Origin: Geodermatophilus tzadiensis
GTDB lineage: Bacteria; Actinomycetota; Actinomycetes; Mycobacteriales; Geodermatophilaceae
Direction of reading: 5' to 3'
Assembly: GCF_003002915.1 (NCBI RefSeq)
Contig: NZ_PVTG01000016.1
Span: 62,001-126,000 of the forward strand
DNA: 64,000 nucleotides
Shown piece after piece: positions 1-14,774 of the stretch. The translations under genes and the position numbers were made by a program. The notes under the pieces were generated by a model. The model was not told the origin of the DNA. It saw only the letters and a program-made list of their open reading frames with translations, and searched no databases. How positions within the stretch are numbered: position 1 is the stretch's first letter; each line of letters begins with the position of its first letter.

Positions 1-343
1 GGGGATCGACTACAACATCTTCCTGATGACCCGCGCCCGCGAGGAGTCGGCGCGGCACGGCACCCGCGACGGCGTCCTGCGGGCGCTGGCGGTGACCGGC
101 GGGGTGATCACCAGCGCCGGGCTGGTGCTGGCGGCGACCTTCGGCGCACTGTCGGTGCTGCCGCTGCTGTTCCTCACCCAGCTGTCGTTCCTCGTGGGCT
201 TCGGCGTGCTGCTCGACACCTTCGTCGTCCGGTCGCTGGTGGTGCCCGCGGCGGTCGCGCTGCTCGGCGACCGCACCTGGTGGCCCAGCCGGCTGGCCCG
301 CCGGCCGCACCCCGAGCCCGAGCGCGCGCTCGAGCCGGTCTGA
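1..343 (+). CDS. MMPL/RND family membrane transporter, C-terminal fragment
   Basis: The window opens inside this gene; about 113 C-terminal residues are visible. The fragment starts with GIDYNIFLMTRAREE, the motif that follows a transmembrane segment in the second half of MMPL/RND lipid and drug exporters. Two or three hydrophobic segments follow, then a short charged tail ending in a TGA. The family exports lipids or hydrophobic compounds using the proton gradient; the substrate cannot be judged from this piece. It is convergent with pheA, and a palindrome lies between them. Confidence 0.85.
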   Translation, partial: GIDYNIFLMTRAREESARHGTRDGVLRALAVTGGVITSAGLVLAATFGALSVLPLLFLTQLSFLVGFGVLLDTFVVRSLVVPAAVALLGDRTWWPSRLARRPHPEPERALEPV

Positions 344-344
344 G

Positions 345-368
345 CGGGCAGTTCCGCGGAAGTGCCCG
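345..368. repeat. Palindromic repeat (TTCCGCGGAA family) between convergent genes
   Basis: A near-perfect dyad centred on TTCCGCGGAA fills the gap between the stop codons of the MMPL gene and pheA. The same core occurs at 42983-43033 and 54256-54306, always beside a 3' gene end. It probably acts as a bidirectional terminator or is a member of a dispersed REP-like family. Confidence 0.65.
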
Positions 369-369
369 G

Positions 370-1305
370 TCACACCTCGCCGGCGCGGAGGCGGGCCAGC
401 CAGGCGTGCGCGTCGGCGAAGGCGGCGTCGGCGGCGACGTCGGGCACCGGGCGGTTGGTGCGGCCGTCGGCGCGCGGGTAGGAGCCGAGGAAGCGCACGT
501 CCTCGCAGACCCGGTGCAGGGCGGCCAGCGCCTCCCCCACCCGCGCCTCGGCGACGTGCCCCTCGCAGTCCAGCGAGAACGAGTAGACCCACAGCCGGTC
601 GCGGGTGGGCCGGGACTCGATGCGGGTGAGGCTGATCCCGCGGACGGCGAACTCGCGCAGGACGTCGAGCAGCGCGCCGGTGCGGTCGGCGACGACGGCG
701 ACCAGCGAGGTCTTGTCGTCACCGGTCGGCTCCGGCAGCGTCCCGGGGCGGGACACGAGCACGAAGCGGGTGACCGCGCCGGGGTGGTCGGCGACGTCCT
801 CGGCCAGCGGCACCAGCCCGTAGCGCTCGGCGGCGATCGGCGCGCACACGGCGGCGTCGTGCTCGCCCTCGGCGACCGCGCGCGCCGCGGCGGCGGTGGA
901 GGAGGCCGGCAGGCTCGGGACGCCGGGCAGCCAGGTGGCCACGGTGCGGGTCGTCTGGGCCAGTGCGTGCGGGTGGCTGACCACGGTGCGCACGTCGGCG
1001 GCCCGCGTGCCGGGGCGGACGGCGAGGACGAAGGAGACGGGGAGGAACACCTCGCGGGTGATGACCAGCGGGTCGCCGTCGGCCAGGCCGTCCATCGTGG
1101 CCGGCACCGAGCCCTCGACGGAGTTCTCCAGCGGCACCAGCGCGGCGTCGGCCTCGCCGGTGCGCACCGCCACCAGGGCGGCCGCGACGCTGGCGGCCGG
1201 CTGCCGGAGGCCCTCGTCCGGGCCGACTGCGGTGCTCAGCGCCGCCTCGGCGAAGGTACCCTCGGGGCCGAGGTAGGCGAACCGCGTCGGAGGCGTCTCG
1301 GGCAC
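370..1305 (-). CDS. pheA: Prephenate dehydratase
   Basis: Converts prephenate to phenylpyruvate in phenylalanine biosynthesis. The protein (about 311 aa) opens with the family signature FAYLGPEGTFAEAAL, has the periplasmic-binding-protein-like catalytic domain (about residues 5-185, with NSVEGSV near residue 60), and ends with an ACT domain that normally binds phenylalanine for feedback inhibition (GALLDVLREFAVRGISLTRI, then ESRPTR). I chose GTG at 1305 because it gives the normal N-terminus and because TACCCT lies 6 nt before it (plus-strand 1312-1317), a likely leaderless promoter. An in-frame start 14 codons upstream would overlap that promoter. It stands alone, convergent with the MMPL gene. 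Confidence 0.95.
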   Translation of the reverse strand: MPETPPTRFAYLGPEGTFAEAALSTAVGPDEGLRQPAASVAAALVAVRTGEADAALVPLENSVEGSVPATMDGLADGDPLVITREVFLPVSFVLAVRPGTRAADVRTVVSHPHALAQTTRTVATWLPGVPSLPASSTAAAARAVAEGEHDAAVCAPIAAERYGLVPLAEDVADHPGAVTRFVLVSRPGTLPEPTGDDKTSLVAVVADRTGALLDVLREFAVRGISLTRIESRPTRDRLWVYSFSLDCEGHVAEARVGEALAALHRVCEDVRFLGSYPRADGRTNRPVPDVAADAAFADAHAWLARLRAGEV

Positions 1306-1403
1306 CCGACGAGGGTAGTGCGACCGGGCGGAGCCGCAGGTCGGCACGGGGGCCTGCCGCCACCGGCCGAGCGGCCGGACACCCGTCGAACGGAAGGGAA
1401 CGC

Positions 1404-3080
1404 GTGACTCCCGGGCCCGTTTCCGTCACCCACGGTGACCTGGACGCTGCGCTGTGGCGCGTCCTGGCCGCCAGCGGGCGGGACGACGCCGACGCCTTCC
1501 GCACCGAGCTCGACGCCGTCGAGGGCGCCCTCGCCGCCGCGAGCGAGCCGCGCTGGGCGGCCTGGCGCGCGGCCCTCGGCGCCCGCCGCGCCCTGGTCGA
1601 CGGACACCCGGACGCCGCGGCCCACGACCTCGCCACCGCCCGCGAGGCGCTGGCCGCCTGCCCGCCCGCGCCGTCGACCGCGCTGGCGCTGGCCTACCTG
1701 GCGCACGTCGAGGCGGCCGGCGACCACCCCGACGCGGCGATGCTGCTGGCGATCGACGCCAGCCTGCTCACCGAGCAGCTCGGCACCGGTGAGCCCACGC
1801 GCGACCTGCACCAGGCGCACCTGTGGCTGTCGCTGACCCTCACCGCGCTCGACCTCGAGGAGCTGGCGCTGGCCCAGGCCGAGCAGGGCTGCCGGGTGGC
1901 CTCCGCGCTGCCCGGGCTCGCCGACCGCTGGCTGCTGATGCGGCTGTGCGCGCAGCAGTCCACCGAGCTGGCCCAGACGCTGCGCCGCCGCGGCCAGGTG
2001 GACCGCAGCGTGGAGCTCGCCGGGAGCGCGCTGGCCCACGCCACCGGCGCCCGCGCCCTCGACGTCGAGCCCGACCCCGACGACCTCGACCTGCTCGACG
2101 TCGTCCAGGCCTGGGCGCTGGCCTGCCACGACGACCTCGACGACGCCGTCGGCCCGCTGCGCTCGGCGCACCGGCGGGTGCACCGGACGGGGAGCACCTG
2201 GCTGCGCGGCTACACCGACCTGGCGCTGGCCCGGCTGCTCGGCCGGCTCTCCCAGCTGCACAGCGGCGGCGGGCACGCCGAGGAGGCCACCGACCTGCTC
2301 GTCGACGCCGCCGGCGCCTTCGCCGCGACCGCCGACCGCCGCCGCTACCGCCAGTGCCTGCTCGAGCTCGGCCAGGCCACCGCCGCGAGGGGCCGGCCCG
2401 CCGAGGCGCTGTACTGGCTCGACGCCTACCGCACCGACACCGGGCGGGCGCACGCGCGCAGCCGCGAGCTGTGGGCGGAGATGTTCGTCCGGCGCAGCCG
2501 ACTGCGCGAGGTCGAGCGGCAGGCGGCGGAGCTGCGCCGGCACGCGCTGGAGGACCCGCTGACCGGGCTGGGCAACCGGCGCAGCGCCGAGCGCCGACTG
2601 GCCGGACTCCGGCTGGGCGCCGAGCCGCTGTCGCTGGCCGTCGTCGACGTCGACCGCTTCAAGGAGGTCAACGACGACACCTCGCACTCGCACGGCGACG
2701 AGGTGCTGCGCCGGGTGGCCGCCCTGCTGCGCGAGCACAGCCGCCTCGACGACGAGGTCTACCGCTGGGCCGGGGACGAGTTCCTCGTCGTGCTGCCCAC
2801 CGCCACCCAGAGCCAGGCGCTGGCCGCCGTCGAGCGGCTGCGCGCCGCCGTCGCCGAGGCCGACTGGCGCGACCTGCCGCTGACCGCGCCGATCACGGTG
2901 AGCATCGGGGTGGCCACCGCGCCGGCCGACGGCGCCGGCGACCCGCCCGGCTGGCGCTCGCTGTTCGACACCGCCGACCTGCACCTGTTCTCCGCCAAGC
3001 GCGGCGGGCGCAACCGGGTGCGCGCACCCGGCCTGGTCAGCGACGCCGCGGACGTCGCGGCCGAGGGGACGACGGCGTGA
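1404..3080 (+). CDS. Cytoplasmic TPR-like diguanylate cyclase (AGDEF)
   Basis: 558 aa. Residues 1 to about 375 are alanine/leucine-rich helical hairpins resembling TPR repeats, with no membrane segment or signal peptide, so the sensor is probably cytosolic. The C-terminal GGDEF domain begins at EDPLTGLGNRRSAERRL and carries the catalytic motif as AGDEF (Ala456), a common functional variant. The inhibitory I-site RxxD (RLDD) sits five residues before it, as in cyclases under product feedback. It should make c-di-GMP from two GTP. The GTG start follows GGAAGGGA at 1391-1398. The stop overlaps the start of the next, paralogous gene by 4 nt. Confidence 0.9.
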   Translation: MTPGPVSVTHGDLDAALWRVLAASGRDDADAFRTELDAVEGALAAASEPRWAAWRAALGARRALVDGHPDAAAHDLATAREALAACPPAPSTALALAYLAHVEAAGDHPDAAMLLAIDASLLTEQLGTGEPTRDLHQAHLWLSLTLTALDLEELALAQAEQGCRVASALPGLADRWLLMRLCAQQSTELAQTLRRRGQVDRSVELAGSALAHATGARALDVEPDPDDLDLLDVVQAWALACHDDLDDAVGPLRSAHRRVHRTGSTWLRGYTDLALARLLGRLSQLHSGGGHAEEATDLLVDAAGAFAATADRRRYRQCLLELGQATAARGRPAEALYWLDAYRTDTGRAHARSRELWAEMFVRRSRLREVERQAAELRRHALEDPLTGLGNRRSAERRLAGLRLGAEPLSLAVVDVDRFKEVNDDTSHSHGDEVLRRVAALLREHSRLDDEVYRWAGDEFLVVLPTATQSQALAAVERLRAAVAEADWRDLPLTAPITVSIGVATAPADGAGDPPGWRSLFDTADLHLFSAKRGGRNRVRAPGLVSDAADVAAEGTTA

Positions 3081-5797
3081 CGCGCGGCCCCGCCTGGGAC
3101 TCCCGTGACACGACGGACGACGGGCCGCCCGCGTCCCGGCGTGCCCCCGGTCCGGTGCTCGACTCCCCCGCGGACGGCGTGCACAGTGCGCTGGTGCCAC
3201 CCGGAGCCCTGCACCAACGGGTGAGCGCTGCCCTCGCCAACTGGCAGCTCGACGACGCCGAGCACCTGCTGTCGGTCGTCGACCTCTCCTCGCCCTACGA
3301 GCCCGACGACCGCGAGGGGCGGGCCGGACGCGACGACCCGCCGTCCCTCGGCCGGGCGTGGGCCGACACCCTGCGCGCCGAGCTGCTCGTCCGCCGGCTG
3401 CGGGTGGCCGGCTTCAGCGTGGTCGGGGAGCCGATCGACGCGCCCGCGACGGAGTCCCTCGACCTGCACGCCGGCGTCGCGGGGCTGCTCGACCACCCCG
3501 GGGAGCGCCCCGACGGGGACCCGCGCTCCGCGTCGGCCTCGCACGCCGCGCTGGCCATCGCGCTGGTGCGCTCGGCCAAGGCCGCCTTCGACGCCTCCGA
3601 CGACGACCTGCAGCGCGCCGCGGGCCTGGCCCGGCACGCGCGCATCGAGCTGCTGTCCCGCCGGGTCGACGCGGCGATGGACGAGGCGGTCGAGGCCGCG
3701 AGCCTGCTCGACTCCGACCTGCCGCCCGGGGCGCTGCTGGTCGACACCCTCGGCACGCTGGCCGGCGTCCTGGCCGACCTCGAGCTCATGCCGCTGGCGC
3801 TGGACTACCAGCGCCGCGCGCTGGAGGCGGCCACCGCGGCCGCCGAGCAGGGCCTGCTCGACGACGACGAGCACCCCGAGGTGCTCGCCGCCCGCGCGGC
3901 CACCTGCCTGGCCGAGCTGTGCGCCGAGCTCGGCGAGGCCCTGCTCGACGACGGCGACCCCGCCTCCGCCGCCCCGCACTTCGCCGAGGCCCGCCGGCTG
4001 GCCGAGCAGGCGCTGGCCCAGCTGCCCCCGGACGCCGAGGGGATCGTCGCCGCGCAGGTGGTGCACGGCTGGGCGCTGGTCGGACTCGGCGAGCACGCGG
4101 CCGCCAGCGGGCCGCTGCGGGCCGCCGTCCGCGTCAGCAGCGCCACCGGCGACCGGGCGCTGCTGGCCTCGGCGGAGCTCGCGCTCGGCCGGGCGCTGCG
4201 CCGCCAGGGCGACGGGCGCGGTGCCGACGAGCAGCTGGCCAAGGCGCTGGCGCTGGCCACCGAGCACGGCCTGCCCCGGCTGCGGCGGGCCGCGCTGCGC
4301 GAGCTGTGCACGCTGCACGCGGAGCTCGACGACGCCGGCCGCGCGCTGCCCTACCTGCAGGCCTACCTCGCCGACGAGCTGGAACGGGTCGACGAGCGGC
4401 GCACCCGCTGGGTGGAGCTGTTCGGGCGGCGCAAGAGCCTGCTGGAGAACGAGCGGGCCGCCGGCCAGCTGCGCCGGCAGGCCTACGAGGACCCGCTCAC
4501 CCACCTGCCGAACCGGCGCTACGCCGAGGCACGGCTCGACGGGCTGCTCAGCGCCGGCACCACGCCCGCGCTGGCCGTCGTCGACGTCGACCGGTTCAAG
4601 TCGATCAACGACGCGGTCGGCCACCCCGGCGGCGACGCGGTGCTGCGGACGGTCGCCGAGCTGCTGCTGGCCGGCTGCCGCGACACCGACGAGGTGTGCC
4701 GGTGGGCCGGCGACGAGTTCGTCGTGCTGCTGCCCGACACCACCGCCGAGCAGGCCGAGCACGCGCTCGAGCGGATCCGCCGCGCCGTCGCCGCGCACGA
4801 CTGGGCCGCCGACGGCGTGACCGTGCCGGTGACCATCAGCGTCGGCATCGCCTCGGCCACCCGCGGGGACGACCGCCGCACCCTCTTCGCCGCGGCCGAC
4901 GGCGTGCTCTACGACGCCAAGCGCAGCGGCCGCGACCGCGTCGTCCGGCTCTCGGCGCTGACCCAGACCCGCGCCCCGGACGCCGCCCCGCCCGACACCC
5001 CCGCCCCCACCGCGGGGCCGTCCCCGAGGGTCACCGTGCGGACCTCGCCGCTGGACCCGGTCGGCGGGTTCGCCGCGCTGCTGGCCGACCGGTCGCCCGA
5101 CCCGCCGCTGTCGACCGGCAGCCCGGCGGAGCCCTCGCTCGCGCCGCAGCCGGCGCCCGGCCCGCCCGGCCGCCCGGAGCCGGCCGAGCCCGACGTCATC
5201 TGGGGGGTCAACCGCAGCACCGAGCAGGTGCTGGCGCTGGTCCGCGAGGCACGCGCCGAGCACCCCGACCGGCCCGCGCTGGTGGTGCGCGCGACCGCCG
5301 ACACCCTCGTCGCGCTGGCCGCCGCGCACGACGGGTCCACCACCGTCGACGCCGTGGCGATGTCGGCGGCGGTGGGGCCGATCCCCGAGCCGCGCGGCCG
5401 GGTCGGCGTGCTGTGCGCCGGCACCGCCGACGCGTCGGTGGCCGCCGAGGCCGCCTTCGTCGCGCGGGTCACCGGCACCGAGGTCGTGCGCGTCGACGAC
5501 GTCGGCGGCAGCCGGCTGCGCCCGCTGCTCACCGACCGCACGCTGCTCGACGACACCGACTGCCTGGTCGTCGTCGCCGGGCTCGACGCGTCGCTGGCCG
5601 CCACCGTGGCCGCCATGACCGACGTCCCGATCGTCGCGGTGCCCACCTCCACCGGGCAGCCGGGGTCCTTCGGCGGGTTCGGCGCGCTGCTGACCATGCT
5701 CAACGCGGCCTCACCGGGCGTCGTGGTGAGCACGATCGACAACGGCCACGCCGCCGGCGTCTTCGCCGCCCGCATCGCCCGCCGCACCGCGAGGTAG
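3077..5797 (+). CDS. TPR-GGDEF protein fused to a C-terminal LarB-like (PurE-fold) domain
   Basis: 906 aa in three parts. Residues 1 to about 465 are TPR-like helical repeats. Residues about 472-625 form a GGDEF domain (YEDPLTHLPNRR, CRWAGDEFVV at about 542-551) with an intact I-site RDTD five residues before AGDEF. After a Pro/Ala-rich linker, about residues 705-905 resemble LarB, the carboxylase/hydrolase of nickel-pincer cofactor synthesis: VGVLCAGTADASVAAEAA, VVVAGLDASLAATVA, VPIVAVPTSTGQPGSFGG and a final IDNG. Where LarB has MLNSC this protein has MLNAA, so Ala878 stands where I expect the reactive cysteine. The start overlaps the previous stop (GTGA); GTG at 3179 is an alternative. No larA, larC or larE is in the window. 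The N-terminal halves of both cyclases align, so the pair arose by duplication. Confidence 0.85.
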   Translation: MTRGPAWDSRDTTDDGPPASRRAPGPVLDSPADGVHSALVPPGALHQRVSAALANWQLDDAEHLLSVVDLSSPYEPDDREGRAGRDDPPSLGRAWADTLRAELLVRRLRVAGFSVVGEPIDAPATESLDLHAGVAGLLDHPGERPDGDPRSASASHAALAIALVRSAKAAFDASDDDLQRAAGLARHARIELLSRRVDAAMDEAVEAASLLDSDLPPGALLVDTLGTLAGVLADLELMPLALDYQRRALEAATAAAEQGLLDDDEHPEVLAARAATCLAELCAELGEALLDDGDPASAAPHFAEARRLAEQALAQLPPDAEGIVAAQVVHGWALVGLGEHAAASGPLRAAVRVSSATGDRALLASAELALGRALRRQGDGRGADEQLAKALALATEHGLPRLRRAALRELCTLHAELDDAGRALPYLQAYLADELERVDERRTRWVELFGRRKSLLENERAAGQLRRQAYEDPLTHLPNRRYAEARLDGLLSAGTTPALAVVDVDRFKSINDAVGHPGGDAVLRTVAELLLAGCRDTDEVCRWAGDEFVVLLPDTTAEQAEHALERIRRAVAAHDWAADGVTVPVTISVGIASATRGDDRRTLFAAADGVLYDAKRSGRDRVVRLSALTQTRAPDAAPPDTPAPTAGPSPRVTVRTSPLDPVGGFAALLADRSPDPPLSTGSPAEPSLAPQPAPGPPGRPEPAEPDVIWGVNRSTEQVLALVREARAEHPDRPALVVRATADTLVALAAAHDGSTTVDAVAMSAAVGPIPEPRGRVGVLCAGTADASVAAEAAFVARVTGTEVVRVDDVGGSRLRPLLTDRTLLDDTDCLVVVAGLDASLAATVAAMTDVPIVAVPTSTGQPGSFGGFGALLTMLNAASPGVVVSTIDNGHAAGVFAARIARRTAR

Positions 5798-5905
5798 CGG
5801 TCCAGACGTCCCCGCACCCGCCACGTCCTCTGGCGAGCCGCCCCGCGGAGGACGGCGGACCGGTCGCGGGGCCGGAGGCTCCCGGCCGGGACGGCGTGGC
5901 AGGGC

Positions 5906-7027
5906 TCAGCGCCGGTCGGGGACGGCTCCTGGCCGCGGTGTCGGCCGGAAGGCCGACCACGTGATGGGCACGGCGGCGGCGAGGAGCACCGCCACCGCCG
6001 GCGCGCCGCCGAGCGCCCAGGCGGCGAAGACCAGCAGCGACGCGAGCTCGATGCCCAGGCCCGCCACCGAGGTCACCGTGGCGCGCACCGCCCCGGGCAC
6101 CTGCTCCTGCAGCCGCGCCTCCCCCACCACCAGCACCGCGAGATAGAGCCCGTAGGACACCGCGACCGCGGCCAGCGCGACCGGGTGCGCCACCAGCGCC
6201 CCCACGGCGAGCAGCACCGCGGAGGAGGCCAGCAGCACCGGCAGGGCGCGGGCGGGCAGCCGCCCGACCCGGCCGGCCAGCGCGGCCCCCGCCGCCCCGG
6301 CCAGCGCGACGACGAGGACGGCGGCCGGCACGAGCGCGGTCGGCACGCCCAGGTCGCGGGCGAGCACCGGGAAGTACTCCTCGATCGCGTCCAGCCCGCC
6401 GAGCAGCGCGACCGCGGCCAGCACCGGCCACAGCCCCGGCCGGCGCAGGGCCGTCGCGGCCGCCGTCCGCAGCGGCACCTCCGGCTCGCCGTCGTCCGCG
6501 CGCGGCAGCTCGGGGAACCCGGTGGCCAGCCCCGCCGCGGCCAGGCACACCGCCACGCTCGCCCACCCGACGAGCGGGTACCCGCCGGCGGCCACCAGCA
6601 CCCCCGCCAGCAGCGCCGTGGGCACCTGGACCAGCAGCTCGGTGGCGGTCGTCGCGCCGTGCACCCGCAGGTAGGCGTCCTCCGCGCCGGCCGCGGCCAG
6701 CCCGTCGTAGACCAGCGCCTCGGCCGTGCCCGACACCAGCGCCCCGCCGACCCCCCACAGCACGAAGCCGGCCGCGAAGCCCACCGGACCGGGGGCCGCC
6801 GTCCACACCGCGAAGCCGGCCGCCTCCAGGACGCCGGCGAGCACCAGCGCGCCGCGGCGCGACCACCGGTCGGCGAGCACGCCGGTGGGCACCTCGGCGA
6901 GCAGGCCGGTCAGCGACCACAGCGCGAACAGGCCCGACACCTGCGCCGCGGACAGCCCGGTGTCGAGGAACAGCAGCGCGTACAGCGGGTAGACCGGGAC
7001 CAGGCCCGACAGCGCCGTCCAGGCCAC
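5906..7027 (-). CDS. MFS transporter
   Basis: 373 aa, about 11-12 hydrophobic helices. The cytoplasmic loop between helices 2 and 3 carries the MFS signature as GVLADRWSRRGALVLAG, preceded by LTGLLAEVPTG. Overall it resembles the drug/metabolite efflux MFS proteins of actinobacteria, but the substrate is unknown. The GTG start at 7027 puts the first helix at the N-terminus; the frame is open 18 codons further upstream to a stop near 7083. It is divergent from the Mn2+ riboswitch unit and monocistronic by spacing. Its end lies 108 nt from the convergent GGDEF-LarB gene. Confidence 0.85.
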   Translation of the reverse strand: MAWTALSGLVPVYPLYALLFLDTGLSAAQVSGLFALWSLTGLLAEVPTGVLADRWSRRGALVLAGVLEAAGFAVWTAAPGPVGFAAGFVLWGVGGALVSGTAEALVYDGLAAAGAEDAYLRVHGATTATELLVQVPTALLAGVLVAAGGYPLVGWASVAVCLAAAGLATGFPELPRADDGEPEVPLRTAAATALRRPGLWPVLAAVALLGGLDAIEEYFPVLARDLGVPTALVPAAVLVVALAGAAGAALAGRVGRLPARALPVLLASSAVLLAVGALVAHPVALAAVAVSYGLYLAVLVVGEARLQEQVPGAVRATVTSVAGLGIELASLLVFAAWALGGAPAVAVLLAAAVPITWSAFRPTPRPGAVPDRR

Positions 7028-7154
7028 GGCGAGGCGGGCCAGCGGTCGGGCCGCCGGCGGGAGGGGGTCGGACGCCGGGCGTCAACGGAACGGCACGGCC
7101 GCACGGTAACCGGGACCACACCACGGCGCACCCGGGTTCCCGGCGCCGGTCGGC

Positions 7155-7160
7155 TAGGGT
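7155..7160 (+). promoter_or_regulatory. Likely -10 element (TAGGGT) of the riboswitch transcript
   Basis: TAGGGT lies about 10 nt before the first conserved riboswitch bases, so transcription would begin just upstream of the aptamer. No clear -35 is visible. Confidence 0.5.
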
Positions 7161-7164
7161 GGGC

Positions 7165-7290
7165 GGTCGAGAAGGGGAGTAGCCCCCCGTCCGCTGGTCG
7201 ACACGCTGGCACCCCCGGGTGCCCGGTCAGCGGGCCCGCGCCCCGCGCGGGTGGGCGAGACCTTCGACCGGAGCAGTCGTCGCACTGCCG
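7165..7290 (+). ncRNA. yybP-ykoY (Mn2+-sensing) riboswitch
   Basis: The leader contains the hallmark GGGGAGUAGCC (7174-7184) of the yybP-ykoY class, then GUCGACACGCUGG (about 7198-7210) and, on the 3' side, GCGAGACCUUCGAC (7256-7269), matching the conserved GAGACCUU segment; G/C-rich stems separate them. This class binds Mn2+ and switches on manganese exporters. It ends about 55 nt before the GTG of a GDT1/UPF0016 gene, a known target family. Whether it acts on termination or ribosome access cannot be told; the following GC-rich hairpin and the GAAGAGAGA site at 7328 fit either. Confidence 0.85.
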
Positions 7291-7343
7291 GTCGGAGGCG
7301 TGCGCCCCCGCCCGGCCGTGCCGAGCGGAAGAGAGACCCACCC

Positions 7344-7943
7344 GTGATCGTCCTGTCCGTCGTCGCGACGGCGTTCCTCCTCGTGCTCCCCGTGGAGCTG
7401 CCGGACAAGACGCTGTTCGCCAGCCTCGTCCTGGCCACCCGGTTCCCGCCGCTGCCGGTGTTCGTCGGTGTCGGCACCGCCTTCGGCCTGCAGGTGGCCA
7501 TCGCGGTGACCGCCGGCTCCCTGCTGTCCCTGCTGCCGCAGGCGCTGGTCACCGGGGTGGTGGCGGTGCTGTTCCTGGTCGGCGCCGTGCTGCTCTGGCG
7601 CAGCGCGTCCGAGGGGCCCGAGGACGGCGGGGAGGCCGCCGACGCGCGGGAGCAGACGTCGTTCCTGCGAGCGGCGGCCGTCTCCTTCGGCGTGCTGTTC
7701 GCCGCCGAGTGGGGTGACCTCTCCCAGCTGGCCACCGCCGGCCTGGCCGCCCGCTTCGACGCCCCGGTGTCGGTCTTCGTCGGCGCCTGGGCCGCGCTGC
7801 TCACCGTGTCCGCCCTGGCGGTGTTCCTCGGCAAGGCGCTGGCCGACCGGCTGCCGGTGGCGCTCATCCGCCGGGTGGCCGCGGTGCTGTTCGTCGTGTT
7901 CGCCGTCCTCGCCGCGGTCGAGACGGTGCGCGCGCTGGTCTGA
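7344..7943 (+). CDS. GDT1/TMEM165 (UPF0016) family Mn2+ exporter
   Basis: 199 aa, six predicted membrane helices in two repeats of three around a hydrophilic loop (GPEDGGEAADAREQ). Each repeat holds the family's acidic signature, here ELPDKT near residue 18 and EWGDLSQ near residue 126, which form the cation path. The family moves Mn2+ (and Ca2+ in eukaryotes) against H+. The gene sits directly behind a yybP-ykoY riboswitch, which strongly supports Mn2+ efflux. I chose GTG 7344, preceded by GAAGAGAGA; an earlier in-frame start at 7251 lies inside the aptamer and is unlikely. Confidence 0.9.
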   Translation: MIVLSVVATAFLLVLPVELPDKTLFASLVLATRFPPLPVFVGVGTAFGLQVAIAVTAGSLLSLLPQALVTGVVAVLFLVGAVLLWRSASEGPEDGGEAADAREQTSFLRAAAVSFGVLFAAEWGDLSQLATAGLAARFDAPVSVFVGAWAALLTVSALAVFLGKALADRLPVALIRRVAAVLFVVFAVLAAVETVRALV

Positions 7944-7984
7944 CCGGCACCGGCCGTGCGCCCGCGGTGGGACCATCGCCGTCG

Positions 7985-8949
<965 letters not shown>

Positions 8950-8953
<4 letters not shown>

Positions 8954-9768
8954 CCGCCGTCGGGACGCCGCGCACGACGAGCACCCCGACCACCCGGCCG
9001 GGCGTCGGCCGGGCGTTCGCCGCGCTGCTGTGGCGCGACGTGTTCGTCACCGGCCGCGAGTTCGTGACGTTCCTGCTGCAGGTGGTGCTGCAGCCGGTGT
9101 TCCTGCTCTTCGTCTTCGGCAAGGTGCTCACCGAGCTCGGTTTCACGTCGAACACCTACGCCGACGTGCTGCTGCCCGGTGTGGTGGCGCTGGCCGCGTT
9201 CCTCACCGCGCTGCAGAACACCGCCTTCCCGCTGGTCATCGACTTCTCGTTCACCAAGGAGATCGAGGACCGGCTGCTCGCGCCGCTGCCCACCGCGCTG
9301 GTCGCCGTCGAGAAGATCGTGTTCGCGACGCTCCGCGCGCTGGTCGCCGCGCTGGTCATGTTCCCGATCAGCCGGTGGGTGCTCGGGTCGTTGCCGGTCA
9401 CCTGGTCCGACGTCCCGCTGCTGGCCGTCTTCCTGGTGCTCGGCTCGCTGGTCGGCGCGGCGATGGGCATGGTGCTGGGCACCGTGGTCAAGCCCAACCG
9501 GATCAACGTCGTGTTCGCCGTCGTCCTGACGCCGCTGCTGTTCACCGGCTCCACCCAGTTCCCGTGGCCGGCGCTGGAGTCGCTGCGCTGGTTCCAGGTG
9601 GTGTGCGCGGTCAACCCGCTCACCTACGTCAGCGAGGCACTGCGGGCGGAGATGGCGCCCGACGTGCCGCACTTGCCGCTCGCGGTGTGCGCCCTGGCGC
9701 TGACCGGCTTCCTCGTCGTGTTCGGCACGCTGGGCCTGGCCGGCTTCCGCCGCCGCGCCCTCGACTGA
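8950..9768 (+). CDS. ABC-2 type permease
   Basis: 272 aa with about six membrane helices and a cytosolic N-terminal tail rich in Thr/Pro. The segment NPLTYVSEALRAEMAP is typical of ABC-2 permeases of the DrrB/NodJ type. It pairs with the ATPase just upstream (4 nt ATGA overlap) to form an exporter with two ATPases and two permeases. Nothing in the neighbourhood identifies the cargo. Confidence 0.92.
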
Positions 9769-9772
9769 CGGC

Positions 9773-10249
9773 TCACAGGCCTCCTGACGACGCCCAGTCG
9801 GCGAGGCGGCGCTCGGCCTCCTCGGGGGAGACGTCCTCGACCCGGGTCAGCACCGCCCAGCGGTGGCCGAAGGGGTCGTAGAGCGAGGCGAACCGGTCGC
9901 CGGTGACGAAGGTGGCCGGCTCCTCGCGGACGGTGGCGCCGCGCTCGACCGCCCGCGCGACGACGGCGTCGACGTCGGGCACGTAGACGCAGGTGGAGCT
10001 GCTCACCAGGTCGCCCTCGCGCCGGGGCGCGGCCAGCCCGAAGCGCTCGTCGGGGTCGCCGAGCTGCAGCCGGCCGGACTCGAACTGCAGCTCCGCGTGC
10101 GGGACCGAGCCGTCCGGGCCGTCCATCCGGCTGACCACGGTGGCGCCGAAGACCTCGCCGTACCAGCGGATCGCCTCCGCCGCCGGGGAGCAGACGAGGA
10201 ACGGGGTGAGGGACGTGTAGCCGTCGGGCCGGCCGTGCGTGATCGCCAT
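9773..10249 (-). CDS. VOC (glyoxalase-like) family protein
   Basis: 158 aa. It begins YTSLTPFLVCSPAAEAIRWY and contains HAELQFESGRLQLGD, features of the PhnB-like VOC proteins that fold as paired beta-alpha-beta3 modules; YDPFGHRWAVLT closes the second module. Members bind a metal and act as isomerases, dioxygenases or resistance proteins, but many PhnB-like ones have no known activity. CAGGCT lies 6 nt before the ATG, suggesting a leaderless transcript. It converges with the ABC permease, leaving only 4 nt between stops. Confidence 0.8.
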   Translation of the reverse strand: MAITHGRPDGYTSLTPFLVCSPAAEAIRWYGEVFGATVVSRMDGPDGSVPHAELQFESGRLQLGDPDERFGLAAPRREGDLVSSSTCVYVPDVDAVVARAVERGATVREEPATFVTGDRFASLYDPFGHRWAVLTRVEDVSPEEAERRLADWASSGGL

Positions 10250-10307
10250 GCGGCCAGCCTGGCCGTCCCCGTCCGGGGTGTCTTGCAGGAACCCGACAGC
10301 CGCCGCC

Positions 10308-11216
10308 TCAGGGCAGCGTCGGGATCCAGTCGGCCAGCGCCCGGCCGATCTCGTGCGGGCTGTCCTCGGGCACGAAGTGCGAGCCGGGCACGGTGACCTC
10401 GGTGAGCGAGGGCCACTTGCGGACCAGCGCCCGCTGCCGGCCGACCAGGATCGAGCCGGGGTCGGCGTCGAGGAACAGCTTGGGCACGGCGCTGGTGCGC
10501 AGCCAGTGCCCGTACCGGGAGACGACGTCGCGCACCCGCGGCGGCACGTTCTCGATGGGCAGCTGCCGCGGCCACTCCAGGGTGGGCCAGCGGTCCTCGC
10601 GCTCGCGGAAGGGCTCCCGGTAGCGCTCGTGCGCCTCCGGGTCGAGCCCGCGCAGCACCGAGGCGGGCAGGATGCGCTCGACGAACACGTTCTTGTCGAG
10701 CACCACCGCCTCGCCGTCGTCACCGCGCATGGTGCGGAAGATGCGGCGCGCGTCGGCCGGCCAGTCGGCCCAGGTGAACGGGCCCACGATCGCCTCGGTG
10801 AAGGCCACGCCGCGCACCGCCTCGGGGTGCCGGCTGGCCCAGTCGAAGCCCAGCGCCGACCCCCAGTCGTGCAGCACGAACGTCACCCGGCGCCGCACGC
10901 CGACCGCCTCCAGGAAGTCGTCGAGGTGCGCGGCGTGGGTGGCGTAGGAGTAGGTGCCCCGCCCCGGCGCGGGCAGCTTGCCCGACTCCCCCATGCCGAC
11001 CAGGTCCGGCGCGATGCAGCGGCCCAGGTGCTGCACGTGCGGGATGACGTTGCGCCACAGGTAGGACGACGTCGGGTTGCCGTGCAGGAAGACGATGGTG
11101 TTCCCACCCGCCCCGCTCTCGCCGACGTCGACGAAGGCCATCTCGGTGCCCCGCACGGTCACCCGGTGCCGCGGGAAGGAGTCGAGGGGCGAGACGACGT
11201 CGTGCTGGTCGGCCAT
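10308..11216 (-). CDS. Haloalkane dehalogenase (HLD-II type)
   Basis: 302 aa alpha/beta-hydrolase that should cleave carbon-halogen bonds hydrolytically. The diagnostic features are all there: HGNPTSSYLWRN (Asn47, first halide ligand), VLHDWGSALGF (nucleophile Asp117 with Trp118, second halide ligand), AFTEAI (Glu141, catalytic acid in the subfamily-II position) and GSHFVPEDSP (His280). The motif LVGMGESGK is also typical of DhaA/LinB relatives. GAGGAT lies 6 nt before the ATG, a possible leaderless promoter. The natural substrate is unknown, as for most actinobacterial members. Confidence 0.9.
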   Translation of the reverse strand: MADQHDVVSPLDSFPRHRVTVRGTEMAFVDVGESGAGGNTIVFLHGNPTSSYLWRNVIPHVQHLGRCIAPDLVGMGESGKLPAPGRGTYSYATHAAHLDDFLEAVGVRRRVTFVLHDWGSALGFDWASRHPEAVRGVAFTEAIVGPFTWADWPADARRIFRTMRGDDGEAVVLDKNVFVERILPASVLRGLDPEAHERYREPFREREDRWPTLEWPRQLPIENVPPRVRDVVSRYGHWLRTSAVPKLFLDADPGSILVGRQRALVRKWPSLTEVTVPGSHFVPEDSPHEIGRALADWIPTLP

Positions 11217-11265
11217 GCCGGGATCCTCGCCCAGGCACCGCCGCTCCGCCGTCCGAGGACTGCGC

Positions 11266-11300
11266 TTGACCCTGACGCGACGTCAGGCTGTGCACTCGTC
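11266..11300 (+). promoter_or_regulatory. MerR-type promoter with operator dyad for the TipA-like gene
   Basis: TTGACC at 11266 serves as a -35. It runs directly into an inverted repeat, CCTGAC (11271-11276), five bases, GTCAGG (11282-11287), where a MerR dimer would bind between -35 and -10. A good -10 is not obvious; with the 19 nt spacer usual for MerR promoters it would be TGCACT at 11291. This suggests autoregulation. Confidence 0.6.
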
Positions 11301-11326
11301 GCCGTCAAGGGAGGAGGGACCCGGGG

Positions 11327-12082
11327 ATGAACGTGGGAGAGGTCGCGGCGCTGGCCGGCGTCACGGTGCGCACGCTGCACCACTACGACCGCATCGGCCT
11401 GCTGTCGCCGTCGGGCCGCACCGCGGCCGGCTACCGCCGCTACTCGGCGGCCGATCTCGACCGGCTGCACCAGGTGCTGCTCTACCGCGAGCTCGGGTTC
11501 CCCCTCGAGGAGGTCGCGACGCTGCTCGACGACCCGTCCGCCGACCCCGTGGAGCACCTGCGCCGGCAGCACCGGCTGCTGCGGGACCGGCTGGACCGGA
11601 CGGCGGCCATGGTCGCGGCCGTGGAGAAGGAGATGGAGGCACGACAGATGGGGATCTCACTGACCCCGCGAGAGCGGTTCGAGGTCTTCGGCGACCACGA
11701 CCCCGAGCAGTACGAGGCCGAGGTGCAGGAGCGCTGGGGCGACACCGACGCCTACCGGGAGTCCTCCCGGCGAGCCGCGGCCTACACCAAGGACGACTGG
11801 GTGCGGGTCACGGCGGAGGGCGAGGACGTCGAGGCGCGGATGGCCGCGGCGCTGCAGGCGGGCGTGGCACCGGACTCGCCGGAGGCCATGGACCTCGCCG
11901 AGGAGGCGCGGCAGCAGATCAGCCGCAACTTCTACGACTGCTCGCCCGAGGTGCACGCCGGACTGGGCCGGCTGTACGTCGAGGACGAGCGGTTCACCGC
12001 GCACTACGAGCGGCGGGCGGCCGGCCTGGCGCAGTGGGTGAGCACCGCCGTCCAGGCGAACGCCGCCCGCCAGGGCGCCTGA
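11327..12082 (+). CDS. MerR family regulator with TipAS ligand-binding domain
   Basis: 251 aa. Residues 1-70 are a MerR winged helix ([20 protein letters not shown]), followed by a helical dimerisation region (about 75-110) and a TipAS domain (about 120-245, with [11 protein letters not shown]-like helices and [17 protein letters not shown]). In Streptomyces TipAL the TipAS domain covalently traps thiopeptides such as thiostrepton and switches on the tipA promoter. The GTG/ATG region is preceded by GGAGGGACCCGGGG. A dyad in its own promoter argues for autoregulation. No obvious resistance target gene is adjacent. Confidence 0.92.
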
Positions 12083-12257: not shown

Positions 12258-14774
12258 GTGAGTCACAGCAGCCCCAGCGGCCCCGGGGGCCTCGCGAGCG
12301 CCGCCGCCCGGCTGCCCTGGCCGGTCGTCACAGTCGGCGCCGCCGCCGTGTACGCGGCCGCGAGCGTGCTCGGCCGCGCCACCCGGCTCGAGGGCTCCCA
12401 GCTGGCGCTGGTGTGGCCGGCCGCGGCCGTGGGCGTGCTGTGGCTGGCCGCCTCCTGGGTGCACCCGCGCCGCCTGGTGGTGGACGCCGTCGTGCTGGCC
12501 GTCGTCGCCGGGACGGTCAACGGGCTGACCGGGTTCGGGCCGGCCGAGGCGGCGGTGCTCGGCGTGGCCAACGCCGTCCAGGCGGTCGTGGCGTGCGCCC
12601 TGTTCTCCCGGCTGCAGCGCCGGTGGGGCACCCCCGACGTGTGGCGGCTGCGGCGCCCCACCGACCTCGGCGCGCTCGCCGCGGCCGCCGTCGGCTCCTC
12701 GCTGGTCACCAGCGCGCTCGGGCCGGTGGGCCTGTGGCTGCTCGACGACGGGCACCTGGTGGCCGCCATGGGCACCTGGACGGTGCGCAACGCCGCCAGC
12801 GTCCTCGTCTTCGCCCCGCTGGCGCTGCTGCTGGTCGACCCCGGGGCCGCCCGCACCGAGCTCGGCCGCGCCCGGTTCGCCGAGCTGGCCGGGGTCACCC
12901 TGCTGACCTCCACCGCCTACGGGCTGGTGATGGGCATCGCCACGCCCGTGCCGGTGGCCTTCGCGCTGCTGCCCTTCGGCATGTGGCTGGCGCTGCGGTT
13001 CGACCCGACCGTGGCGGCGGTCCACGTCACGCTGGCCGGCGTCTTCGTCGTCGTCACCACGCTGGGCGGCTGGGGTCCGTTCGCCGTCGCCGACCTGTGG
13101 CTGCGCGCCGGCCTCGCCCAGGCCTACGTCGTGGTCGCCGGCGTCGTGGCGCTGGTCGTCGCGCTGCACCACGACGAGCGGCAGCGCCTCATCGCCGGGC
13201 TCGAGCAGGCCCGCGCCGACGCCGACGAGCAGGCCCGCCTGGCCGGGCAGGCCATGGCGCACACGTCGGCCTTCCTGGCGGTGATGAGCCACGAGATCCG
13301 GACCCCGCTCAACGGCGTCCTGGGGCTGACCTCGCTGCTGCTGGGCACCGACCTCGACGAGCGCCAGCGCGAGTGGGCCGCCGCCGCCGACCGGTCGGGC
13401 CGGACGCTGCTGCGGATCGTCAACGACGTCCTGGACTCCGCCAAGGTCGAGGCCGGGGCCGTGGAGCTCGAGGAGGTCCCGCTCGACCTGCTCGAGGTGC
13501 TCGACGAGGCGGCGCTGCCGGTGCGCGCCCCGGCGGCCGACCGCGGGCTGGTCCTGGCCGTCACCGCCGCGCCCGGGCTGGCCCCGCACCGCACCGGCGA
13601 CCCCGGCCGGCTGCGCCAGGTCGTGGGCAACCTGCTGTCCAACGCCGTCAAGTTCACCGAGTCCGGCTCGGTCACCCTCACCGTGGCCGGCGACGCCGCG
13701 ACCGTGGTCCTGCACGTCACCGACACCGGCATCGGCATGACCGGCGACCAGCTCGCCCGCCTGTTCACCCCGTTCACCCAGGCCGAGGCCTCGACCACCC
13801 GCCGCTTCGGCGGCACCGGCCTGGGGCTGAGCATCGCCGCCGGGCTGGTGGCGCGGATGGGCGGGCGGATCACCGCCTGCAGCGCACCCGGTGCGGGCAC
13901 CACCTTCCGCGTCGAGCTGCCGCTGCCCGAGGCCGGACCGGCCGACGGTGCCGCCCCCGTCCCGGCGCCGGCGGCCGTCCACGGGCTGCGGGTGCTGGTG
14001 GCCGACGACGACGAGGTCAACCGGCTGGTCGCCCGCATGACCCTGGAGGCCCGCGGCCTGGCCGTCGACGTCGTCCCCGACGGCGCCCGGGCGGTCGAGG
14101 CCGTGCGCGCCGGCGGCTACGCCGCGGTGTTCATGGACTGCCACATGCCCGGCGTCGACGGCCTGGAGGCCACCCGCCGCATCCGCGCGGCCGAGGTGGC
14201 CGAGGGCCGTCCCCGGACCCCCGTCGTCGCGCTGACCGCGAGCGCGCTGACCGACGACCGCGCCCGCTACCGGGAGGCCGGGATGGACGGCTTCCTGCCC
14301 AAGCCCTGGACTCCTCAGGAGCTGCAGGCGGTGCTCGAGCTGGTCGGCGCCGCGGCCCCCGCCCCCCGGCCGGCCGGCGCCCTCCCCCCGGTCGACGACG
14401 ACCTGACCACCGTCCGCGCCCGTCTCGACGAGCTGTTCGAGGACGACGACCCCGAGGAGGTCGCGCCCGTGCGCGCCTCGCTGCTGACCACCTTCCGCGA
14501 CCGCACGGCGACGCTGGTCGGGGACCTCTCGGCTGCCGCGGCCACCGGTGACCGGCCCGCCGTCGCCGCCGCCGCGCACGCCCTGCGCGGCAGCGCCGGC
14601 AGCATCGGCGCCGGCTCGCTGGCCGCCCTCGCCGCCGCCCTCGAGGAGCGGGCCGAGGCGCCCGGCGGCGCCGACCTCGTCCCCCTGGCCGACCGGCTGG
14701 CCGCCGCGGCCGCCGCCCTCGCACCCGGGCTGACCGAGCTGGCCGCGGCGACCCCCCTGCGGCGGGCGTCGTGA
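12258..14774 (+). CDS. MASE1-domain hybrid sensor histidine kinase with REC and Hpt domains
   Basis: 838 aa. About residues 10-305 form a MASE1-like integral membrane sensor of eight or so helices ([16 protein letters not shown] is the typical early segment). A HisKA domain has the phospho-acceptor His345 in [11 protein letters not shown], followed by the ATPase domain with NLLSNAVKF (Asn near 458), DTGIGM and GTGLGLSI. A receiver domain follows with Asp627 in VFMDCHMPG and Lys in LPKPW, then a C-terminal Hpt domain with His774 in [11 protein letters not shown]. All four phosphorelay sites are intact, so it can run His-Asp-His internally. It heads a five-gene operon of overlapping genes; GTG 12258 is the first start that includes the whole membrane domain. 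Confidence 0.92.

Follow-up and report, generated by a model that had tools for sequence, protein, structure and literature searches.

A diguanylate cyclase fused to a LarB-like domain without the catalytic cysteine in the Geodermatophilaceae

What might a domain resembling LarB, a protein of the nickel-pincer pathway, be doing at the end of a diguanylate cyclase? The question is raised by a locus of Geodermatophilus tzadiensis (genome of 4,869,823 bases), examined here in a stretch of 64,000 nucleotides, the window, that lies within one contig. An initial annotation made from the sequence alone described a 906-residue fusion protein, and both the open reading frame and all of the motifs quoted for it (AGTAD, VVVAGLDASL, VPTSTG, IDNG, AGDEF and the I-site) are present in the window. 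The fusion gene runs from a GTG start codon at 3077, which overlaps the stop codon of the preceding gene, to its own stop codon at 5795-5797 (Table 1). That upstream gene encodes a helical-GGDEF paralogue; the two genes overlap by 4 bases, and the two cyclases are probably co-translated. The paralogue, the long low-complexity linker with its conserved motif and the genomic context across the family are additions to the initial annotation. No Lar protein is encoded among the five other neighbours listed, and an Rfam scan of window positions 1-12000 gave no match.

Table 1. Features of the fusion locus, in window coordinates.
Feature	Position	Strand	Basis
Prephenate dehydratase	370-1347	-	
Helical-GGDEF paralogue upstream of the fusion (558 aa), with AGDEF and an RLDD I-site	1404-3080	+	ORF, Pfam
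Helical-GGDEF-LarB-like fusion gene, 906 aa	3077-5797	+	ORF reading, Pfam, NCBIfam
N-terminal TPR-like helical region and long helix into GGDEF, residues 37-470	3185-4486	+	AlphaFold2 model
GGDEF diguanylate cyclase domain, residues 469-621	4481-4939	+	Pfam E 4.4e-39
I-site RDTD, residues 535-538	4679-4690	+	motif intact
AGDEF motif, residues 544-548	4706-4720	+	motif intact
Pro/Ala-rich linker, residues 623-704	4943-5188	+	low-complexity stretch
Linker motif GFAALL, residues 664-669	5066-5083	+	pattern common to fusion linkers
LarB-like domain without catalytic cysteine, residues 705-906	5189-5794	+	NCBIfam, PDB, AlphaFold2 model
Ala784, LarB Ser127 column	5426-5428	+	alignment
Arg813, fixed in fusion clade	5513-5515	+	alignment
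Ala878, LarB catalytic cysteine (Cys221) column	5708-5710	+	alignment
MFS transporter	5906-7027	-	
GDT1-type cation antiporter	7251-7943	+	
MerR-TipAS regulator	11327-12082	+	
MASE1 hybrid histidine kinase	12258-14774	+	

In the AlphaFold2 model the first 36 residues have low confidence, and the chain up to residue 470 forms helical hairpins followed by a long helix running into the GGDEF domain. TPR-like repeats had been claimed for this region; Pfam returned TPR matches below threshold only (E 0.05-0.07), while the predicted hairpins make 'TPR-like' a fair label. The cyclase consensus is intact at the level of sequence, with the metal-binding, GG(D/E)EF-type and I-site residues all present and Ala as the first motif residue. 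Across 42 aligned fusions, window included, Asp503, Asp505, Lys508, Asn511, Asp512, Asp520, Arg535, Asp538 and the Ala-Gly-Asp-Glu of residues 544-547 are invariant, and the last AGDEF position holds Phe (38 fusions) or Tyr (4 fusions). The fold, catalytic residues and I-site residues are shared with the GGDEF cyclases SiaD and DgcB; unlike these, the fusion has a large helical N-terminal region and a LarB-derived C-terminal domain on a long tether. VCA0965, another AGDEF cyclase, is reported to synthesise c-di-GMP in vitro (PMC3974145), and the likeness claimed between it and the fusion is confined to the AGDEF active-site motif and the RxxD motif. Furthermore, the c-di-GMP-dependent regulator RsiG is recorded for 16 of 16 species of the family (PMC8325347), so c-di-GMP signalling would be expected to matter in this group.

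The C-terminal part had been assigned to LarB from its motifs, and both profile and structure comparison substantiate this homology. The NCBIfam model for LarB (NF033503) matches residues 705-902 over profile positions 12-208 of 209 (E 1.2e-43), with a score of 149 bits that falls below the curated equivalog cut-off of 175 bits. The best PDB sequence matches are solved LarB chains (E about 1e-30). Furthermore, the domain as modelled by AlphaFold2 (pLDDT 91) superimposes on crystal structures of LarB (Z 27.6, 202 aligned residues) and on PurE (Z about 18, about 130 residues), so that the LarB-specific N-terminal and the PurE-like parts are both present. PurE (AIR carboxylase / N5-CAIR mutase) shares its fold with the C-terminal two thirds of the domain, and Pfam AIRC matches residues 826-902; however, an identity as PurE was rejected on the weaker purE profile match (E 6.9e-07 versus 1.2e-43) and the lower Z, and the host genome has a separate purE-type gene. 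The domain thus stands far nearer to LarB, sharing fold and sequence with Lactobacillus plantarum LarB (PDB 7mj0, 7mj1, 8soq) over residues 44-248 of the latter, retaining its scaffold residues and adjoining larC in most relatives that have larC. It differs from that enzyme in lacking the catalytic cysteine and Ser127, in its altered site loops, in being joined to a cyclase, in scoring below the curated LarB level and in being retained in genomes without LarC and LarE.

The absence of the cysteine was borne out by alignment to Lactobacillus LarB. Its catalytic Cys221, which we take to be the residue forming the pyridine adduct, corresponds to Ala878, and Ser127 corresponds to Ala784. All 50 ordinary LarBs aligned from the order and the family have Cys in column 221, against 0 of 49 fused domains, which carry Ala (42), Thr (3), Pro (2) or Ser (2); two incomplete rows, L035 and L037, are left out of the 49-row counts. 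PDB entries 8soq, 8stc and 8std are S127A variants of LarB, indicating that Ser127 has drawn the interest of LarB workers; Ala also occupies this column in 2 of the 50 ordinary LarBs (L055 and L057). Glu180, presumably also with a role in LarB, is Asp in the fused domain, and this change was dropped as added proof of lost catalysis since Asp is common there in ordinary LarBs. The fused domain does contain Cys780 and Cys829 away from the aligned column. Cys780 is found in 33 of 36 fused domains and Cys829 in 98% of 49, the latter being Cys in 9 ordinary LarBs as well; a relocated nucleophile is unlikely.

Overall, 59 positions are at least 95% conserved among ordinary LarBs. The fused domains retain many of these, among them Pro199-Thr200-Ser201, Asp128, Glu134, Asp151, Gly178, Asp231 and Gly233 (L. 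plantarum numbering) and are changed at Cys221 and in the AGTS, VAGIHR, GMxGA and YGA segments, which we take to line the active site in the PurE/LarB fold. The initial annotation had also noted a change in the AGTSD-like loop, and the alignment agrees. Some of the new residues have in turn become fixed: Arg813 is present in 44 of the 45 fused domains with a residue there, where 50 of 50 ordinary LarBs have Gly, while Gly811 is found in 44 of 46 and Ala838 in 49 of 49. As judged from these alignments, the fused domain is remodelled rather than decayed. The former nucleotide may no longer bind, because the phosphate-loop Ser and other pocket residues have been lost.

Such remodelling could in principle serve a new chemistry, that is, a cysteine-free action on a pyridine or purine nucleotide (e.g. 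as a hydrolase) coupled to c-di-GMP. The retained Asp128, Glu134, Asp151, Thr200-Ser201 and Asp231 would suit such an enzyme, as would the common cysteines elsewhere in the domain, and LarB itself is reported also to hydrolyse the phosphoanhydride (PMC11796402). However, loss of the catalytic cysteine is universal (49 of 49), the AGTS, VAGIHR and YGA loops are changed, Cys780 is not invariant and Cys829 is shared with ordinary LarBs, and we regard this explanation as quite unlikely.

To what extent is the fusion a feature of this lineage? A scan for close relatives in a collection of 84,980 species gave 36 loci, all from Geodermatophilus, Modestobacter or Blastococcus, and among named genomes those of Geodermatophilus telluris and G. 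dictyosporus hold the closest relatives of the domain. Among 298 genomes of the order, all 50 family genomes with a LarB match have a fusion-type one; outside the family 52 genomes match, 51 exceeding the LarB cut-off and one holding fragments only, with 20 LarB loci of this set (L041-L060) read and the rest judged by score. A profile of the fused domain scored 382 and 327 bits in two family members and at most 230 bits in the others of 394 class genomes, and at most 148 bits outside the host genome among 396 phylum genomes, where the class and phylum scans score only seven candidates in each genome, and the samples taken from order, class and phylum share members. No fusion was found outside the Geodermatophilaceae in these three samples. 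Within the family it occurs in about 102 of 112 genomes: 87 among the matches listed (classed by LarB score), 3 by protein search (G331, G305 and G306) and 12 inferred from an additional match per genome, one of which (G358) was read. Nine genomes of genera g77-g79 have ordinary LarB only. One further genome, G229, was considered as a candidate natural loss of the domain, but its contig ends about 400 bases past the cyclase match. The 51 fusion-class rows that were read comprise 41 of full length in a single frame (window included), 9 cut by the end of a contig or locus and 1 with a broken frame (L063).

All 49 fused domains fall on one side of a branch with 100/100 support and 0.83 changes per column in a midpoint-rooted tree, which points to a single origin followed by rapid early change, provided that the root lies outside the fusion group. 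Long branches lead to several divergent fusion lineages (L062, L074 and L065/L066). A neighbouring cyclase in genera g77-g79 was considered as a pre-fusion state, but a protein search found no near-full-length relative of the cyclase in the nine genomes, and no GGDEF frame was present in the three scanned stretches beside larB (L110, L111 and L113).

A survey of larC and larE alongside the fusion, suggested in the initial annotation, revealed a family-wide gene that is independent of LarE and often lies beside larC. Of the 112 family genomes, 73 have LarE (one count, G276, being a fragment), and these are exactly the ones with an ordinary LarB; LarC is found in 72 of them and in 10 others. Wherever LarE and the fusion are found together, an ordinary LarB is present too. 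LarE is missing from 39 genomes, yet the fusion is present in 38 of these (35 among the matches listed and 3 by protein search), the remaining one being G229, and the fusion therefore does not replace LarB. The 38 include the host, in which a search found no LarC, LarE, Lar_N or second LarB. The fusion neither substitutes for LarB nor requires the nickel-pincer pathway, and ordinary LarB function was rejected for its domain on the cysteine loss in 49 of 49 and on LarE never occurring without a separate ordinary LarB.

The genomic neighbourhood nevertheless retains a trace of the pathway. Among the matches listed, 62 genomes have both genes, and 57 of these have larC on the same strand at most 8 kb downstream of the fusion; counted between profile ends, the gap is no more than 300 bases in 39 genomes. 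An ordinary larB abuts larC in the five remaining genomes of the 62, and in five basal genomes (g78 and g79) ordinary larB lies 33-96 bases before larC. The usual position of larC just downstream of the fusion, together with these plain larB-larC pairs, suggests that the domain probably derives from the working larB of a larB-larC pair. In the simplest history, the larB of such a pair would have been joined to a cyclase gene, the joined copy would have lost catalysis while a second LarB performed the chemistry, and some lineages would later have dropped the pathway and retained the fusion.

The association with larC in most genomes could also mean that the role of the domain is tied to the nickel-pincer pathway. 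It might regulate or scaffold cofactor synthesis, probably with LarC, the cyclase tying synthesis to c-di-GMP. The 57 genomes with larC directly downstream include 10 (6 of them at least 99% complete) that have neither LarB nor LarE and still hold larC next to the fusion, which speaks against a full separation from the pathway, and a link to LarC may persist. Against such a partnership, the host and most other genomes without LarE have the fusion but no LarC, and five genomes pair larC with ordinary larB instead; we consider it very unlikely.

Given this retention without the pathway, is the domain still maintained by selection? Pairwise dN/dS (Nei-Gojobori) was 0.07-0.23 over 14 fused-domain pairs (8 + 6), and the two ordinary-LarB pairs used as a yardstick gave 0.10-0.13. 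Between the window and seven relatives, the domain had values of 0.08-0.23 versus 0.25-0.35 for the helical-GGDEF part, and the linker reached 0.42-0.59 (window versus five relatives). LarC was absent from 8 of 26 named genomes searched, including 6 of 7 named members of the nine-row clade that contains the window. Domain dN/dS was 0.07-0.23 for pairs in which both genomes lack LarC and 0.08-0.19 for LarC-bearing pairs. The domain is under purifying selection even where larC has been lost. A chance or frame artefact as the source of the fusion was rejected on these values and on the 41 full-length single-frame fusions. That the domain is a neutral relic of gene fusion, an idea to which a frame break in one genome and the divergent lineages lend something, is extremely improbable in view of dN/dS of 0.07-0.23 and retention in about 102 of 112 family genomes. 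The frame break concerns the single-contig genome G170 (C1:1050386-1053123; L127 and L063), where the cyclase and LarB-like parts lie in different frames, and may reflect sequencing error or decay.

The linker between the two conserved parts is 73-179 residues long in 46 rows and rich in Pro and Ala. A short pattern, [GA]F[AGS]x[LV]L, is found in 46 of 46 of these otherwise variable linkers (shuffled mean 0.1, maximum 2), although it was composed after viewing the linkers and the shuffle ignores relatedness; a second motif, LDxLFG/S, is present in 23 of 46. On this pattern of conservation the first motif is possibly a docking motif. Because of the linker length, direct allosteric coupling is less likely than tethering.

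Taken together, these observations are best explained by a LarB-derived pseudoenzyme through which a diguanylate cyclase would respond to a ligand, oligomerise, or both. We hold this reading at about even chances, and its pseudoenzyme step is well supported. LarB and PurE are octamers with active sites between subunits. By analogy, the LarB-like domain would keep this multimerising habit and gather GGDEF domains via the flexible tether; a candidate ligand in the remodelled pocket, with NaAD or NAD as first candidates, might shift the assembly and hence c-di-GMP output. Additional inputs or partners would come from the N-terminal helices and from the sister cyclase encoded by the overlapping gene.

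The main rival reading is a pure scaffold, in which the domain has no regulatory ligand and either clusters GGDEF domains or, helped by the linker motif, docks the protein to a partner. The multimeric nature of LarB and PurE is consistent with this, as are the long tether, the replacement of several pocket residues and the universal linker motif, but the fixation of pocket-side replacements (Arg813 and Ala838) goes beyond what a bare scaffold would need, and we place the scaffold on the unlikely side. The initial annotation had proposed recruitment of the domain away from catalysis as a nucleotide sensor for the cyclase. Recruitment as such is strengthened by the one origin, the retention without the cofactor pathway and the purifying selection. 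The sensor part is still inference, because the cysteine is not the only change (pocket loops differ at several places) and these data would also suit a domain that does no more than oligomerise. Its boldest form, in which a former cofactor enzyme would sense the NAD-precursor pool (NaAD or a relative) and set c-di-GMP output and lifestyle switching across the family, we put forward tentatively and consider rather doubtful.

The initial annotation knew of no GGDEF-LarB protein, and none was described in the literature searched, which leaves most subscription journals outside; the family spread of the fusion and its pseudoenzyme state were likewise not found there. Among the matches listed, no link appeared between diguanylate cyclases and AIR carboxylase, lactate racemase, nickel-pincer or NaAD, and none of the papers listed on LarB and LarC named Geodermatophilus. 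LarB and GGDEF are each well known; the fusion, its family spread and its pseudoenzyme state are the parts that appear new against the literature searched.

The preferred reading, a LarB-derived pseudoenzyme serving the cyclase, would mean that a biosynthetic enzyme became, it seems on a single occasion, a permanent component of a second-messenger enzyme and so outlived the pathway from which it came. The loss of the cysteine together with selection suggests that this LarB copy is now a switch or assembly part in bacterial signalling. If the domain senses a pyridine nucleotide, NAD metabolism would be linked to c-di-GMP, a link of which we know no direct example; an NAD-precursor sensor would be a pseudoenzyme of the LarB family and would give diguanylate cyclases a novel type of input. 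Furthermore, a working larB-larC pair, the fusion alongside the pathway and the fusion without it all exist within this one family, a natural series for tests of pseudoenzyme origin. Genomes such as that of the host would be wrongly credited with nickel-pincer synthesis if annotated by homology to LarB or AIR carboxylase.

Two further observations concern the pathway genes themselves. Six genomes (G176, G217, G106, G194, G292 and G202) no longer have LarB or LarE but keep LarC beside the fusion; its score is below the family norm in five of them, suggesting that LarC may also be repurposed there. In addition, a Lar_N (LarA-type) match is present in only 32 of the 73 genomes with ordinary LarB and LarE. 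The other 41 may therefore make the nickel-pincer cofactor for another protein; about 15% of genomes are reported to have larB, larE and larC but no larA (PMC11796402).
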